Source: Brachionus plicatilis (Eukaryota; Rotifera; Eurotatoria; Ploima; Brachionidae). From it: 64,000 nucleotides of DNA. The notes under the pieces were generated by a model that was given only the letters and a program-made list of their open reading frames with translations, was not told the DNA's origin and made no database searches. The position numbers and the translations under genes are program-made. Positions within the stretch are counted from its first letter, which is position 1. Each line of letters starts with the position of its first letter. This document shows positions 30,539-38,418 of this stretch, piece after piece. The DNA lies in NCBI GenBank assembly GCA_010279815.1, contig QEOQ01000522.1, forward strand, positions 322,742 through 386,741, read 5' to 3'.

Positions 30539-30830
30539 TGTAGACGTCCAAGAAAAAAGCAAGTCAGTTTTGCTCAAAAAACGTTGTTTTTTTTTTTATA
30601 TATATGTTTTTCAGTTTCAGTTTATTATTTATTAGTTTTTTTAAGTTTAGTTTTTTGATATAATTTAATTTTTGTTTTTGTTTATTTGGTTTCGGATTTG
30701 GACCCCGTGTCCCAATTAAGTTGTTTAAAAAACCTTATTGTGTTTTGATCCGAAACCCTCGAGTCTAGAATAGGACTTGAGAAGTCTGACTTGGAAATAA
30801 AAATCTACCAGCAAACCCAGAAATATTACA
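30539..30830 (+). repeat. Left LTR of the Ty3/gypsy element
   Basis: Starts TGTAGACGTCC and ends AATATTACA (TG...CA). The poly(A)-signal position reads AATTAA here against AATAAA in the right LTR. Possible TATA-like GATATAATT near 30656-30664. Confidence 0.95.
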
Positions 30831-30831
30831 G

Positions 30832-30845
30832 TGGTGCCCAATTTG
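30832..30845 (+). promoter_or_regulatory. Primer binding site (TGGTGCCCAATTTG)
   Basis: TGG one base after the LTR, followed by GCCC, is the expected complement of a tRNA 3' end (…GGGCACCA). It is close to, but not the same as, the Lys-type PBS of gypsy; the tRNA is not assigned. Confidence 0.7.
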
Positions 30846-30951
30846 CTGAACAGTTTACAAATAGTAAACGTTAGAAACGAACTCACGATACAGAAAGAAC
30901 TCAGGTGGTAGTGTAGGTTAGTTTGCTGAAGCAGCAAGTGGATTTGTGTAT

Positions 30952-31250
30952 ACTAGGGACGCAGTGACAAGACGTCTAACAATCAAAGTTGTGCAAGACT
31001 GAATACACGTGTAAAAAACCACATAAGGGTGATCTGATTTGGCGAATCGACTATAGATTTAGCGATTCACGTGAAGAAAAAATTAAAGAAAATCAATTTG
31101 AAATCAGTTAGACTAGGGACGCAGCGACGAGACGTCTATCTGAGCGATTTAGTGCTGGAAACACGAGTGAAAAGACAACAAGAGAAAGACTGAATCTTTA
31201 ATTGTTGTTGGGTTTAAAAATTTCAAGACCAGGGACGCAGTGACGTGTAG
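30952..31250 (+). repeat. Three repeats of AGGGACGCAG(T/C)GAC in the retrotransposon leader
   Basis: Copies begin at 30955, 31114 and 31231. The first two are followed after two to three bases by AGACGTCTA; the third reads GACGTGTAG there. They lie in the untranslated leader between PBS and gag, where packaging or dimerisation signals of retroelements usually sit. Confidence 0.85.
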
Positions 31251-31338
31251 TCATTGTAAATAACTGTGTAGTGGTTTATTACCATATCCTTTTTAATCAT
31301 CGTATAAAAAAAGAAAACTTTAGGAAATACCCATCCCA

Positions 31339-32766
31339 ATGGACGAAACATTGGAACTCCGATCGATCATAGCAACAGCTTTGTTCGGAACACCGAGAGA
31401 AACAAAGAAGGTGGTTGAAGACGTCGTGGTACCAAAAGCGTGGTTCGAACACTATTTGAAGATAATGGAAACCACGTGGACCGATTATTACATCGGGGTC
31501 ATAGCGACACTATTAAGCATTATAGTGATCAGCACGTGGTATGGAACAAGACCTCGGAACAAAACTTTAGACGATAAGTTCAACAGAATCGACGCGAGAC
31601 TCGATCAATTGATGGGAAATATCAATAATAGACCTCAAGACTTCATATGCTCAAATGTTAACACGAACAGGTTGGACATTAAAAAAGCAATAGAGACTAC
31701 AAGGACATCATCCATGGAAGCAAGGAGGCAAACATCGCCGGAAATTTCAGACAGCACATTAACAACCCAGACGTCTGAAATTGGACCACCCAAGACCTGT
31801 AGCACACCGACCACAAAACAGGCAAGAGAATGGTACAATGACCATAACAGGATTGAAGGTCAACCAAAAAAAGTACCCATCGAGGAAGTGAACCCAACTT
31901 CAACGAGAGCGGACAATACTTTTGTCGACCTGGGTAGACAAGTGCGATTTAAAATGCCCAACACATTGAGCCAGCACAACTCCGGACAAAAGATTGAGAC
32001 GATCAATCCATACCCCATATTATTTGTTTTACCACCAGACAAATTTGACCCCAAAAGAACAGACGTCAGACAGTGGATTAAAGACTTCGATATGTTCATC
32101 GAATCAAACAACATCAACTCACACAAATTGAACATCGTCATTGCACAATTGGACCATGAAACAAGAAAGATAATTGAAAACAGCCAGTTCAGTCTAAATG
32201 AAGAAACTGCTTATGCGGAATTGAAAACACTTTTAAGCCAACTCTACGGAAGAAAAACTACTGCGAATCTGGAACTTAAAAGACAGTTCACAGAAAGAGT
32301 TCAAAGTTTCCACGAAAACGTCTACCTATACGCTTCACAACTTAAAGTAATGTCCAAACAGTCTCATTATGAACTTTTACCATATCAAAAGGACAATCTG
32401 GTGAAGGATCAGTTCATACGTGGACTAAGAGACAAATTCCTGCGCACACGACTACAGATCATAAGAGAAGACATGTCATTAAAAGACATTGTAGAGGAGG
32501 CGGCCAGATATGAAAGAGCGGTTGAGGACGTCCAAGAGTTCCCAGAAAGAACAAAAAAAGTAGATTTTGAAGAGAAAATTGAAAAACATTTTTACAAACC
32601 ACAACAAACACATAATCTTCAAGCAACACAACAAGGAAACACGCCAGGTTCCGATCAAATTATTTGCTCCAACTGCAAACAAGAAGGACACTATAGCAGA
32701 AGTTGCCCGCAAAAACCAAAACACACAGTAAACAACATTGAAACGACACCAATTCTGCAAAATTAA
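31339..32766 (+). CDS. gag: Gag polyprotein of the Ty3/gypsy element (475 aa), with N-terminal hydrophobic segment
   Basis: Intact ORF from ATG 31339. Residues ~50-70 (YYIGVIATLLSIIVISTWYG) form a hydrophobic segment followed by basic RPRNK, unusual for a Ty3/gypsy Gag and consistent with a membrane-anchored N-terminus. Residues ~70-220 are polar and low in conservation. ~225-410 is a retrotransposon capsid domain (FDPKRTDVRQWIKDFDMFIE, then LVKDQFIRGLRDKFLRTRLQ). The C-terminus carries one CCHC zinc knuckle, C443-x2-C446-x4-H451-x4-C456 (CSNCKQEGHYSRSC), for RNA binding. Gag overlaps the pol frame by 29 nt; pol lies in the +1 frame, so expression of pol would need a programmed shift or an alternative start. 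It is the only undamaged ORF of the element. Confidence 0.95.
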   Translation: MDETLELRSIIATALFGTPRETKKVVEDVVVPKAWFEHYLKIMETTWTDYYIGVIATLLSIIVISTWYGTRPRNKTLDDKFNRIDARLDQLMGNINNRPQDFICSNVNTNRLDIKKAIETTRTSSMEARRQTSPEISDSTLTTQTSEIGPPKTCSTPTTKQAREWYNDHNRIEGQPKKVPIEEVNPTSTRADNTFVDLGRQVRFKMPNTLSQHNSGQKIETINPYPILFVLPPDKFDPKRTDVRQWIKDFDMFIESNNINSHKLNIVIAQLDHETRKIIENSQFSLNEETAYAELKTLLSQLYGRKTTANLELKRQFTERVQSFHENVYLYASQLKVMSKQSHYELLPYQKDNLVKDQFIRGLRDKFLRTRLQIIREDMSLKDIVEEAARYERAVEDVQEFPERTKKVDFEEKIEKHFYKPQQTHNLQATQQGNTPGSDQIICSNCKQEGHYSRSCPQKPKHTVNNIETTPILQN

Positions 32767-35700
32767 CAATACCGGCGTAAGATTTTTGGTAGACACAGGT
32801 TCTAAGCATTCAATTTTGAGCGCGAAAGCATGTCGAAAGCTTAGATTAAAACCACAAGAAAGCTCAATTGAACTGCATAACGCTGATGGAAATAAAAAAG
32901 GAATAATCGGTCGCGCCGATGTAGACGTCAAAATAAACAATGAGTCATACAAAATTGGAATGATTATAGTTGAGAATTTAGTCAATGAAATGATTTTGGG
33001 TGTATATGATCTAAACAAATTTAGAAACCCAAGACGTTTTGTAAATGCGTTGAAGCAGTGGACCTCTAGCACATTGTGTAAACTCGAACCAGGAAAATTT
33101 AGAAAGCCGACTAAAAAGCTGACCCAAATGAAGAGCAAAATCGAAAATACACAAAAGGAAACCAATGTCATTTTAAAAGCAAATGGTGCTTCCAAAATTA
33201 CCGGAAAAGTATGTAAAACAACCTCGTTAGCGGTCATAAACAAAATTCAAGAAAAAATATCCATCAAACAAGAATTTAGCGAAGAACAACTCGAGAACGC
33301 GAGAAATAAGATAGACGAAAAGGTAACCGAAATTTCAGCTAGTAACCTTACAGATCTTACACCGACAAACAAAACACAGCACACCATCGAAGTAACCGAT
33401 AAAACACCCTTTCATATCAAAACGAGACCGGTATCATACGCCAAGAAAGAGGAATTCAAGGCATCAATCGAAGAAATGCTCGAAGCCAACCTAATCAGAC
33501 GTACAAAATCCCCTTATTCCTCACCTGTCCATCAAGTAAAAAAGCCAGAGGGCGGAACACGCATGACAATCGATTATAGAAAACTGAACGGGCGAACAGT
33601 CAAGGATAACTACCCGTTACCGAGAAAAGACGTCACAATATACAGCCTTAAAAATGCTAAAGTTTTTTCAAAAAAAGACTTTCACTCAGGCTATTTTCAA
33701 ATACTCATGAAACCAGAAAGTAGACCGTACACAACATTCAGTTGCGAATATGGGTTATTTGAGTTCAACGTAATGCCAATGGGACTGACAAATTCCGGTG
33801 CAACCTTCCAAAGGCATATGGACGATATTTTCAAAGATTTGATAGACAAATTCCTCATGGTCTATATCGACGATATAATTGTTTATTCAGAAACAATCGA
33901 GAAACACTTCGAACATCTCGAAAAAGTGTTTGACATTATAAAAAAACAAAATTTAAAAATTAAGCCAAAAAAATGCAAATTTTTTCAGACGTCTATTAAT
34001 TTTCTAGGGCATGCAGTGAGCAATGGAGAAATCAGACCATCAGCAGAAAAAGTAGAAGCCATTAAAAATCAGAAAAGACCCGAAAACGTTGAGAACATCC
34101 AATCTTTCATCGGTATGGCATCTCACTACAGAAAGTTCATTAAGGATTTCGGTAAAACGGCTTTCCTTCTACACGAACTTTGCGCCAAAGACGTCCCTTT
34201 CGTCTGAGATGACGAATGCCAAGCCGCCTTCGACAAGCTAAAGGAAGCGCTTACCAATGAACCAGTCTTGACAATACCAGACTTCAAAAAGCGATTCTTT
34301 TTGGAAACAGACGCTTCAAACAAGGGAATCGGCGCAGTATTGTCACAAATGGACTCAGAAGGCAAGTTAAGACCAGTGGCTTACAACTCAAGGAAACTGA
34401 GCAAAGCAGAGCAAAATTACTCAGCGTCGGAAAGAGAAATGCTTGCAATAGTAAACGCAGTCGAACATTTTAAAGAATTCTTATATGGTGCCGAATTCAC
34501 ATTTGTCACAGACCATCAACCACTAAAATGGATTAACAGCGTAAAAAAAACCCGCTCCACGTCTAATAAGATGGATAATTAGACTCGAAAATTATGATTT
34601 CGACATTTTGTACAGACCAGGCGTCGACAACTAAGCAGCTGACGGATTGTCCAGATGGCCAATGGACAAACTAACAGAGACGTCTGAGGACGAAAACGAA
34701 AATTTCATCATAAATAATTTGGTAGGAAAAGGGTCAATCAACACAATTATGTTAAAAAATTTAGAAGGCGATTTAAGTAACCTCAACACCGACGAAAACA
34801 TCGAATGGATCAAAAAAGTGATTGAAAGTGAAATAGGATACCAAGAAATCGAAATTCAATAATTAAACGACGAACAGGCTGACCTATTGAAACAGTCAAA
34901 AAACCTCAAAGTACATAAAAATCAACTTTGGAGAGTAATCGAGAACGATAACGATCAAATACTCCAAATGGTAGTTCCTGAAGCTGACCGAAGGATTATA
35001 ATAAAATTCAACTACTCTTCGATTCTATGTGGACATTTTAAATTTGAAAAAACAATTTCCGGATCAAAAGAAAATTTTATTGGCCGAAAATGAACATCGA
35101 TATTGCAAAATTCATTGAGGAGTGCATAGTATGCCAAAAGACGTCTAACACAAAAAACAAGATCAAAATTCCTTTAAACCCAATACTATCGTCCTTCCCA
35201 CTCGAAATAGTCAACATAGACATTGTAGGACCGTTAAAAGTTAGTAAGAACGGATTTAAATATATTTTAGTAGTTATTGATCATTTTACTAAATGGGTGG
35301 TGTTATACGCACTTAAAAATATCGACGCAAGGACAACTGCAAAAGCATTATTTGATTTTATATGCCGATATGGTATACCTGACGCCTTCTTATCAGACCA
35401 GGGAAAAAATTATCAAGCCCAATTACTTCAAGAACTTTGGGAATTGCTCGATATTAGACGTCTTAGAACAAGTCGATTTCATCCACAGTGCGATGGAGTC
35501 GCAGAAAGACTCAATAGAACATTGAAGCGTATGATAAAATGTTACGTTAACGAAAGTCATGACGACTGGGATGAGCTCCTACCAATGCTAAGCTTCGCCT
35601 ATAATACATCGGTTCACTCGACTACAAAGAACACATCATTTGAGTTAATGTATGGAAGAAAGCCCAAACTTCCTATAGATCTAGTATACCAAACACCTAA

Positions 35701-36389
35701 ACTAAACTTAAAGTTCAACCCGGACTCATATGCCCATTTCATTAAAGAAAAAACTCAATAAAATGTTCAATATCGTTAGGAAAAATAGAGACGTCCGAAT
35801 GCTAAGAAATAAAGTGATACATGACCGACAAGTGATGGCTTCAAGGTTTAAAAAAGACGATTGCGTGTGGCTCAAAGTGGAACAAGTAAAAAAGGTTCAA
35901 TGTAAAAAATTTATATTTAATTGGAAAGGCCCTTATATAGTCGTTGAGAATATACGTGACACAAACTACGTAATTAAGCCACTAAACAAAAGGGGTAGGC
36001 CTATGGTAGTGAATAGGGTTCGATTAAAAAGACATTATCAGAGTATAGATAGGCAGGAATTACCAAAAATAGAAAACTCGGTCAACTACAACAAAAAGCA
36101 TAATAAAGTGAGAGAAATAATAAAAAGAGCAAGAACAGTGAAAGTTCAACGGGTTGGACGAGAGAACAACGTTAGAAAAGTGAACAACGATGTCGACGCG
36201 AACAAAAACGCCCAAGAAGGAAACAGAGCTAAAGAGACGTCAAATCAAATTGAAGACGTCAAAAAGATACCCTTAAAATTTAAACAAAAGGACAAAAACT
36301 TCCAAGAACCAAAAATCAACCAAGAAATTTTTGTACCAGACAGACCAGTCAGGTCACGAAAGCCATCTGATCGATATGTGGCCAACTAG
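32738..36389 (+). pseudogene. pol: Pol of the Ty3/gypsy element, broken by stops and frameshifts
   Basis: Domains in order: aspartic protease (FLVDTGSKHSILSA, D19-T-G; ILGVYDL flap side); reverse transcriptase (33420-34140) with MTIDYRKLN, FSKKDFHSGYF, MPMGLTNSGATFQ and the YIDD box at residues 376-379; RNase H (34208-34580; FLETDASNKGIGAVLSQ, FVTDHQPLKW); integrase with zinc region, DDE core (35090-35700; NIDIVGPL, LSDQGKNY, HPQCDGVAERLNRTLK) and a GPY/F C-terminal module (NWKGPY, 35730-36389). Lesions: in-frame stops at 34205-34207, 34632-34634 and 34860-34862, and frame changes in the A-run 34543-34550, near 35075-35080 and near 35755-35760. One zinc-ligand position near 35010 reads Asn. 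As it stands it cannot yield active enzyme. Some frame breaks lie in homopolymers and could be assembly errors. Confidence 0.95.
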
Positions 36390-36588
36390 AAACATTTATA
36401 ATGCTAACTAATTGTACATAACAAACCGAATTTCGATAAGACAATTGCTTGTCATAATCAATTTAAAGAATTGCATCTTTTAGTCACGTGCTGTAAATAA
36501 AATAAATTATCCAAAAAAAAAGAAAAAAAAAAAATCTTTTCCTAATTCAAAATTCAAAATAAAATCGAACAAAATCCCAAACCAAGTA

Positions 36589-37455
36589 ATGGTGCGTTGC
36601 TTCCCAGCTGAACTACTCGAGGATCAAATAACCGACTTCGTAGACGTCCTCCGAGCCAAAATCGGGCCACTTCGATACGCCCGATTCATCGTCGAAGAGG
36701 ATAGATCACGACGCGACACAGTTGGCTTCATTTCATTTTACGACTTGCGAGACAACCAACGCTGCATCAACACAATAACTCATCGACTGCAATTAATGCT
36801 ACCGCATGACAAACATTACGTCCAGTTCAAAGAGAACCATGACTATAATCATACAGCATTTGACAAATGGCCGAACACCTAGCTAAGAGTATACGATATA
36901 GAAGAGGAACTAATACGTTATGCAAACGAGTACCCAGCGGAAAAACAAACAAGCCCGAGAGAGGAAAATGAGACGTCCTTCAATCCAAATATCAAACCAT
37001 CACACAACACTAAAACGGGTAAAGCTTCTTTTTTAGATAAATTTTATAGGAGCTACCTCGAGAAGACGTTCAATAACGTGATTAGGTTGTGTGACAAAAT
37101 AAAAGTCAAAAACGATAGAAACGGAATAGGGTAAAAGGAAGAAGAACGGACAAAAAACGAAGCCAGGAGAGAGCTGTCGGACGAATTGTGCGAATTGGAC
37201 CCAAAATATAAACACCACAAATCGGAAATGAGCGATTGGTCACTGTTTAAAATCAACAGTGAAATAGAAGTGACAAGGAAGTGGCAGCTAAAAAGAGCCG
37301 CGTTAATTGAGCTCAATAAACTCGACCCAAGCCAAATGAAATTCGGTATGGAGGCTCAATAGATGGATTGGCCTTTGGAGAAAATCCAAGAAGAGATAGG
37401 GAAGACCAAAAAACGGATAGAGGAGAAAGCCGAAAATGACGACACCCTCGACTAA
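36589..37455 (+). pseudogene. Third ORF of the retrotransposon (ORF3), putative RRM-like N-terminus
   Basis: After a 200-nt spacer from pol, an ATG in good context (AAGTAATGG) opens 97 codons to a TAG at 36880. The same frame stays protein-like to the TAA at 37453-37455, interrupted by two further stops (37132-37134, 37360-37362). It takes the env position but has no signal peptide, membrane anchor or cysteine pattern. The first ~85 residues follow the order strand-helix-strand-strand-helix-strand, with VGFISFYDL where RRM proteins carry the RNP1 (GFxFVxF-type) strand and a helix LRDNQRCINTITHRL after it. The remainder is highly charged and helical, possibly coiled coil (EKIQEEIGKTKKRIEEKAE). 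An RRM-like RNA-binding protein is inferred from pattern only. The stops show that this copy is dead. Confidence 0.6.
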
Positions 37456-37462
37456 TTTCACT

Positions 37463-37477
37463 TTTAGGGGGAAGTGG
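37463..37477 (+). promoter_or_regulatory. Polypurine tract before the right LTR
   Basis: TTTAGGGGGAAGTGG directly abuts the right LTR start, the expected priming site for plus-strand DNA synthesis. Confidence 0.8.
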
Positions 37478-37769
37478 TTTAGACGTCCAGGAAAAAAGCA
37501 AGTCAGTTTTGCTCAAAAAACGTTGTTTTGTTTTTTGTATATATGTTTTTCAGTTTCAGTTTATTATTTATTAGTTTTTTTAAGTTTAGTTTTTTGATAT
37601 AATTTAATTTTTGTTTTTGTTTATTTGGTTTCGGATTTGGACCCCGTGTCCCAATAAAGTTGTTTAAAAAACCTTATTGTGTTTTGATCCGAAACCCTCG
37701 AGTCTAGAATAGGACTTGAGAAGTCTGACTGGGAAATAAAAATCTACCAGCAGAGCCAGAAATATTACA
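37478..37769 (+). repeat. Right LTR of the Ty3/gypsy element
   Basis: Same length as the left LTR (292 bp). The first bases read TTTAGACG instead of TGTAGACG, a point change in the terminal TG. It retains AATAAA at 37653-37658. Confidence 0.95.
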
Positions 37770-38159: not shown

Positions 38160-38418
38160 TGTATACGTCCAAGAAAAAAGCAAGTCAGTTTTTGCTCAAA
38201 ATCGTTGTTATTATTTATATGTTTTTCAAGTATTAGTTTTTTTTCAATTTTTGTATTATTATTTCATTTATATATTTGGTTTTGGATTTGGACCTCGTGT
38301 CCCAATAAAGTTATTAAAAAACCTTATTGTGTTTGATCCGAAACCCTCGAGTCCAAAACGGTACTTGAGAAGTCTGACTGGAGAGTAAAAGCCTACCAGC
38401 AGACCAAGAAATATTACA
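38160..38418 (+). repeat. Solo LTR related to the Ty3/gypsy element
   Basis: TGTATACGTCCAAG to AATATTACA aligns along its whole length with the 292-bp LTRs but is shorter (259 bp) and clearly diverged, so it is an older insertion of the same family. It keeps AATAAA near 38303. No exact target duplication was found at its ends. It lies only ~390 bp downstream of the full element. Confidence 0.92.

Follow-up and report, generated by a model that had tools for sequence, protein, structure and literature searches.

A family-specific word of 6–8 letters is repeated, mostly in the sense orientation, along a Ty3/gypsy retrotransposon of the rotifer Brachionus plicatilis and along its relatives in the same genome. 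The element (7231 bp) lies at 30539..37769 of the window, i.e. of the whole stretch of 64,000 nucleotides analysed (assembly GCA_010279815.1, contig QEOQ01000522.1, positions 322,742 to 386,741); its word is AGACGTC. The words are predicted, from sequence comparison, to be sites at which the element's own protein, most probably a third protein of the RNA recognition motif (RRM) type encoded by open reading frame 3 (ORF3), binds its own RNA; the probability of this reading is put at about 0.5. Recognition of the words at the RNA level by some protein of the element, Gag included, appears quite probable.

The AGACGTC word in the window element

Recounting gave 20 GACGTC hexamers in the element, 19 of them preceded by A and one, at 32527, not, exactly as claimed in the preliminary description. 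The AGACGTC words, all on the + strand, were located in the 5' long terminal repeat (LTR; 30542..30548), the leader (30970..30976 and 31130..31136), gag (31419..31425, 31769..31775 and 32061..32067), pol (32923..32929, 33628..33634, 33987..33993, 34189..34195, 34678..34684, 35139..35145, 35456..35462 and 35789..35795), the end of pol (36235..36241 and 36254..36260), ORF3 (36642..36648 and 36971..36977) and the 3' LTR (37481..37487); 15 of the 19 lie within coding blocks. The single exception, GGACGTC at 32526..32532 (+), reads AGACGTC in copies C17 and C18, and the AGACGTT at 33032..33038 (+) reads AGACGTC in copies C17, C18, C53, C29/93 and C93b; 25 sites carry the word in the window element or in some copy.

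The expectation had been calculated for ~40% G + C (GC), which does not hold (element 37%, window 26%); the strong excess over chance does. AGACGTC was observed 19 times against a mean of 0.40 and a maximum of 4 in 500 dinucleotide shuffles, and 15 times in hand-set coding blocks against a mean of 1.46 and a maximum of 7 in 500 codon-preserving shuffles; with automatic choice of ORFs, 9 words stood against a mean of 0.80, and 0/400 codon shuffles reached 9. Order-1 and order-2 Markov models of the element both place it first among 7-mers; under the order-3 model 3.57 are expected and it ranks sixth, behind 7-mers occurring once or twice. AGACGTC is absent from both strands of the remaining 56.8 kb of the window (1434 of those bases are N), and the whole assembly (102.9 Mb in 173 contigs) holds 1075 forward and 1095 reverse matches, i.e. 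~0.15 expected per 7.2 kb on both strands. Outside the element three GACGTC were found in place of the two reported: 28172 and 29774 (given earlier as 29773) are preceded by C as described, and 5063, which had been missed, by G.

The spacing is evener than random, as had been noticed (19 words; mean 386 bp; coefficient of variation 0.49 vs 0.95 for random placement, P 0.0012), despite a closest pair only 19 bp apart. Seven of the 19 words sit in the palindrome AGACGTCT and are hence uninformative on orientation; the other 12 are all sense (0 antisense; P 0.008 after composition correction), so that the single orientation claimed is upheld. By eye, the flanks show no common pattern apart from the preceding A, save for one 30-nt repeat in the leader that carries two of the words.

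A functionless origin of the words, through composition, codon choice or copying of an old internal repeat, is very unlikely. The dinucleotide and codon nulls are exceeded, the flanks are unpatterned but for the leader repeat, the words differ by family, and the sites differ between families C40 and C29 and between C37 and C51 (see below). What can be said for it is that word positions are mostly common to the close copies of the element, which are hence not independent.

Other copies of the family (family A) carry the same bias: in 11 further copies or fragments A precedes 66 of 71 GACGTC, none being antisense-only (33 have just the preceding A, 33 lie in the palindrome AGACGTCT, none has just a following T, and 5 have neither); the A copies C29 and first C93 score almost alike and are possibly duplicates within the 11. 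Copies C2, C42 and C13 (L011, L012, L016/L017) have a common internal deletion joining window position 31869 to 37290; they retain the LTRs, the leader and most words of the remaining parts (C13 reads AGAGGTC at 31419). This form is likely a mobile non-autonomous derivative and was not taken as independent evidence. In and next to copy C53 (L024, L056), ORFs resembling, by eye, pieces of a non-LTR element were noted (zinc-knuckle, endonuclease-like and reverse transcriptase-like stretches).

Word dialects in related Ty3 families

All 6- to 8-mers were ranked in reverse transcriptase (RT)-centred loci of 28 Ty3 copies of the same genome; eight elements were lengthened by neighbouring stretches and four further stretches were added, the longer stretches beyond family A being those of ORF3-bearing families only. 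The AACGTT families C37 and C51 are designated B. In the RT-centred scan, 13/28 loci have a top word matched by at most 1/200 shuffles. The 15 misses comprise four B loci (7, 9, 13 and 18 of 200; one of them, B_C53, with top word CGAAGAG), C19 (54/200, top word ACCAATA), C68 (4), C14 (143), C55 (12), C85 (61) and six loci of a sister clade (4 to 187 of 200).

The word ACAATTAC was found 18 times sense and 0 antisense in C40 (both LTRs included), 10 and 0 times in C29, and 9 and 0 times in C72, where the scan covered 2520 bases. AACGTT occurs 18 times inside the C37 element (19 in the whole stretch) and 20 times in C51; TAGTTGTT occurs 7 times within the elements of both C19 (1 antisense) and C68 (0 antisense), and AACCACTA in C95 (8 sense, 3 antisense). 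Weak words are ACCAAATT in C91 (6 sense, 0 antisense) and AACAACTA in C9 (6 sense, 2 antisense), and ranking of k-mers gave no clear word in the stretches of C85 and C2b; one scan behind these four calls used 20 shuffles. Codon-preserving shuffles were beaten (0/400 each) by the words of A, C40, C29, C72, C37 and C51 (AACGTT), C19, C68 and C91, and 1/400 reached the C95 word. The words in coding sequence occupy two or three frames per family, except in C68, where all five are in one frame. Mean spacing across families is ~280 to 980 bp; evenness was rejected as a general rule, being seen in A, C40 (P 0.04), C68 (0.0002) and C95 (0.036), not in C29, C37 and C51.

After correction for composition, the sense bias in A, C40, C29, C72, C19 and C68 has P values of 0.016 to 3e-5. 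Because of this bias in most families, recognition of RNA or of single-stranded cDNA is favoured over that of double-stranded DNA. The words might still be double-stranded DNA sites of an anti-silencing or chromatin protein that targets its own element, as does VANC of the Arabidopsis VANDAL elements, or of a host factor. The short words read by VANC proteins (YAGTATTAY; AGTTGTCC/AGTTGTAC) are specific to the element and vary among related elements (available part of PMC5735166), the words of A and B are palindromic or nearly so, and those of C95 stand in both orientations. Such sites do not need the sense bias seen here (18:0, 10:0, 9:0, 12:0, 7:0 and 7:1), the third protein found is RNA-recognition-like, and the VANC words are described, in the same part of that source, from non-coding tandem repeats, an arrangement from which the window element departs with its 15/19 words in coding blocks at a mean of 386 bp; this explanation is considered improbable.

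Kissing of palindromes, proposed in the preliminary description, was rejected as a general cause: ACAATTAC is non-palindromic and is tiled equally densely, 18:0, 10:0 and 9:0 in three elements. A host RNA-binding factor from splicing, export or the small-RNA machinery, which the words would serve to exploit or to avoid, would suit the sense bias and frame independence as any RNA-level reader would. The words track element lineage, and families of one genome use different words, so that a single host factor is insufficient and was ruled out; the chance of a host-factor explanation is judged to be small.

Diverged families with one word keep part of its sites beyond chance and have part of their own, i.e. 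place is partly turned over. Words at kept sites were 3/10 for C40/C29 (vs 4.6% of other 8-mers), 3/7 for C40/C72 (vs 8.4%), 3/6 for C29/C72 (vs 8.8%) and 5/13 for C37/C51 (vs 8.7%), some rows of the comparison touching gaps or alignment ends. Taken with the excess over the codon null, such shared and differing sites suggest that the feature maintained through evolution is the word at a typical spacing, its places being exchanged in part.

Two further loci were noted. In C91b (L051), AGCTGCT and AGCAGCT are the top words, 5 each, strands equal (AGCTGCT 0/200 shuffles). In the 3.7-kb locus C93 (L032), GTGACCA was counted 11 times sense and 5 times antisense; this may be a satellite or some other element. 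Among viral contigs, no relative was confirmed by RT.

ORF3, an RRM-like third protein

In most word-bearing families the third protein is RRM-like, and in several a coiled coil and a RING domain follow. With two ORF3 queries, a search that distant ORF3s could escape, relatives were found downstream of RT in A, B, C40, C29, C72, C95, C19, C68, C91 and C85. The C19 protein passes the cutoff of Pfam RRM_1 (23.3 bits vs 20.7); the other nine proteins of the same comparison are below it or unmatched, C95 and C91 coming near. RING was found at the end of the C19 and C95 proteins, and in six ORF3 homologues RRM_1 and RING both match at E <= 0.01. A profile of eight ORF3s matched RRMs first among entries of the PDB (PUB1 2.6e-5, RBMY 1.3e-4), then coiled-coil entries too; of 14 PDB matches of the A/B profile, 13 are RNA-binding entries and one is a recombinase. 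The A/B proteins are more distant, profile–profile comparison with the other ORF3s giving E 0.0012 and probability 19.6.

For P0006, a homologue of the C19 type, the model predicts an RRM with beta-alpha-beta-beta-alpha-beta fold, an extended helix and a RING part; this prediction of the fold covers the C19 type. Fold matches of this model, among those listed, are mostly RRM or RRM-like, with a few others such as aspartate kinase and L7Ae. In the window, ORF3 spans 36484-37359 (+) and consists of an RRM-like part (36484..36879) and two further open stretches (36883..37131 and 37135..37359) read as ORFs, the frame being broken after 36879 and after 37131; no env family is among the Pfam matches of the three pieces. 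The ORF3 proteins of related families have matches at 83 to 97%, over partial length, among the proteins of Brachionus plicatilis, which puts the host near this species. Public records of this species (P0003, P0010, P0013) label a retrotransposon ORF3 as E3 ubiquitin-ligase RNF4 or as RING-type protein; element genes have here probably been taken for genes of the host.

Gag could be the reader instead, its nucleocapsid zinc knuckle and flanks recognising the words as dispersed packaging signals while ORF3 has another job. The available part of PMC4974528 reports that the nucleocapsid part of Ty3 Gag is needed for RNA packaging, and dispersed packaging signals with a common core are described for RNA viruses (available part of PMC6281560). 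A CCHC knuckle was found in Gag of A, B, C40, C95, C19, C68 and C9. The knuckles of C40 and C19 are both of HHKH type, yet their words differ (ACAATTAC vs TAGTTGTT); each of the six families of the sister clade has a knuckle, yet none a strong word in the RT-centred scan; and in the sequenced pieces examined of word-bearing C29, C72 and C68b no knuckle was found. We know of no single zinc knuckle that reads 7–8 bases exactly. Gag is regarded as the main rival of ORF3 as reader of the words, and as the less probable of the two.

Phylogeny and weighing of the evidence

Words and ORF3 associate by clade, not one to one. In the RT tree (26 rows) A and B form one group; the further groups are C40, C72, C68b and C29; C95, C19 and C68; and C91, C14 and C55. 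A supported sister clade (C2c, C99, C77, C27, C44, C142) is set apart, in which the two-query search gave no ORF3 in position and the scan, confined to RT-centred loci of ~4 kb, no strong word; near C44 the opposite strand carries an ORF3-like stretch in upstream position. For the pieces downstream of C27 and C99 (L078 and L079, the latter partly N) the analysis covered ORFs and knuckles.

Several observations weigh against own-RNA binding by ORF3. The association has gaps in both directions: C85, C2b and C9 have ORF3 without a clear word and the C91 word is weak, a top word without an ORF3 hit was seen in C68b and C91b, and C14 and C55, placed among word-bearing families, show neither. The RRM assignment is weak for the window ORF3 alone (RRM_1 E 0.046, 14 bits, below cutoff) and for the A/B profile, with TIAR (best, 0.0069) and Sex-lethal heading its PDB hits at E 0.007 to 0.12; the C37 and C51 proteins are without any Pfam match, and an AlphaFold model of P0001 (3 sequences) was discarded at pLDDT 34. 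The Gag knuckle of A, B, C40, C95, C19 and C68 keeps Gag a candidate reader. Palindromic or nearly palindromic words, as in A and B, would also be favoured by dimers binding double-stranded DNA or by RNA dimerisation. In C95 the orientation (8:3) contradicts a strict sense rule and its bias is within composition expectation; AACGTC in C37 (12 sense, 4 antisense) is likewise no more sense-biased than composition predicts, and codon shuffles reach its count in 3/400 cases there and in 84/400 in C51. Predicted accessibility of the words is raised in C40 only (unpaired 0.53 vs 0.34, P 0.002), not significantly in A, C37, C51 and C29. Words are retained in the close A copies C53 (6/9) and C1 (4/8) at about the rate of other 7-mers (~72%), an absence of excess that is as expected if copies are decaying; C18 keeps 7/7 (P 0.09), C17 7/11 vs 39% (P 0.09) and C29/93 3/5 vs 17% (P 0.035).

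Of the mechanisms put forward in the preliminary description, RNA recognition by Gag or ORF3 gains from the RRM-like ORF3, the mostly sense-biased family words and the excess over the codon null. Recognition of DNA or of the cDNA is regarded as less probable; the C95 words in both orientations would fit a reader of that kind.

Comparison with known systems

Of the known systems found in the parts of the sources available, two come nearest: dispersed packaging signals and VANC. MS2 and other RNA viruses likewise have many common-core sites across the genomic RNA (available part of PMC6281560), these being stem-loops with a variable core and with coat protein as reader; here the word is near-invariant, 6–8 letters long and family-specific, and the candidate reader, an encoded protein as in the viruses, would be of RRM type. 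VANC/VANDAL shares short family-characteristic words differing between related elements and, in the available part of PMC5735166, concerns double-stranded DNA, tandem arrays, non-coding sequence and DNA transposons; the words described here are spaced singly, mostly sense-biased, and lie in coding regions of LTR retrotransposons, not in non-coding tandem repeats. Bdelloid rotifer LTR retrotransposons likewise have a third ORF and often no classical env; the types given are env-like, GDSL, DEDDy, TM and coiled-coil, and the available main text of PMC5408684 contains neither the term RRM nor, in its description of these elements, a tiled word. No description of such tiled family words was found among the literature matches listed.

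In the sources available, LINE-1 ORF1p is a retroelement protein that binds RNA and has a coiled coil, as is proposed for ORF3. It contains an RRM; we know of no tiled word that it reads. ORF3 differs from it in having the RRM first, then a helix and sometimes RING, and in belonging to an LTR element in which Gag is present too. Neisseria and Pasteurellaceae have DNA uptake sequences, short self-marking words tiled through coding sequence in species dialects; these serve bacterial DNA uptake by unrelated machinery.

Architecture of the element

The window element is a Ty3/gypsy LTR retrotransposon, with two LTRs around gag and pol, the order protease, RT, RNase H, integrase, and a CCHC knuckle in Gag; all features are on the + strand. 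The 5' LTR (TGTAGACG...ATATTACA, 30539..30830) is repeated directly as the 3' LTR (37478..37769) with 98% identity over 290 nt. The gag ORF (31339..32763, 475 aa) encodes one CCHC zinc knuckle (zf-CCHC 3.1e-5) and an N-terminal hydrophobic segment. It is followed by pol: protease and RT (32732..34204; gag-asp_proteas 7.5e-12, RVT_1 8e-38), RNase H (34208..34579; RT_RNaseH_2 3.4e-40), integrase core (35048..35758; rve 1.1e-14) and the C-terminal part of integrase (35712..36386; Integrase_p58_C 3.1e-5, 24.4 bits, under the family cutoff of 27). Like that of ORF3, the pol reading frame is interrupted in the window copy.

The hydrophobic segment of Gag (gag ~31490-31550) is transmembrane-like and was seen in A, B, C40, C19 and C95 (loci L028, L031, L036, L039, L040; mean hydropathy 1.77 to 2.95 across 19 residues); it was not seen in the partial gag of C99, C77 and C2c, and is borderline in C27 and C55. 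A diverged second LTR-like piece lies at 38160-38300 of the window, with TATACGTC in place of the LTR's TAGACGTC.

Proposed mechanism and significance

RRMs bind short single-stranded RNA words of such length. In the reading preferred here the transcript would be what is read, in the forms AGACGUC (A), AACGUU (B), ACAAUUAC (C40) and UAGUUGUU (C19), and the RRM of ORF3 would be the reader. The purpose may be to single out the element's own transcript, from a pool of several co-resident families, to be coated and packaged; many spaced words, together with ORF3 multimerising through its coiled coil, could provide avidity despite the short word, and selection for own-RNA choice among co-resident families would account for the dialects. 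Extended, tentatively, to a full self-recognition code, each family would have its own RRM protein and tiled word, co-resident families would coat and package only their own transcripts, word and protein would co-diverge, and in RING-bearing families the word would serve to recruit a ubiquitin ligase to the RNA particle of the element itself.

With a visible word code, several dialects and a candidate reader, the question of how retroelements select their own RNA, and how related families in one genome avoid cross-packaging, becomes accessible to simple binding assays; if the reading is true, these elements would maintain an exact RNA code inside coding sequence in all three frames.

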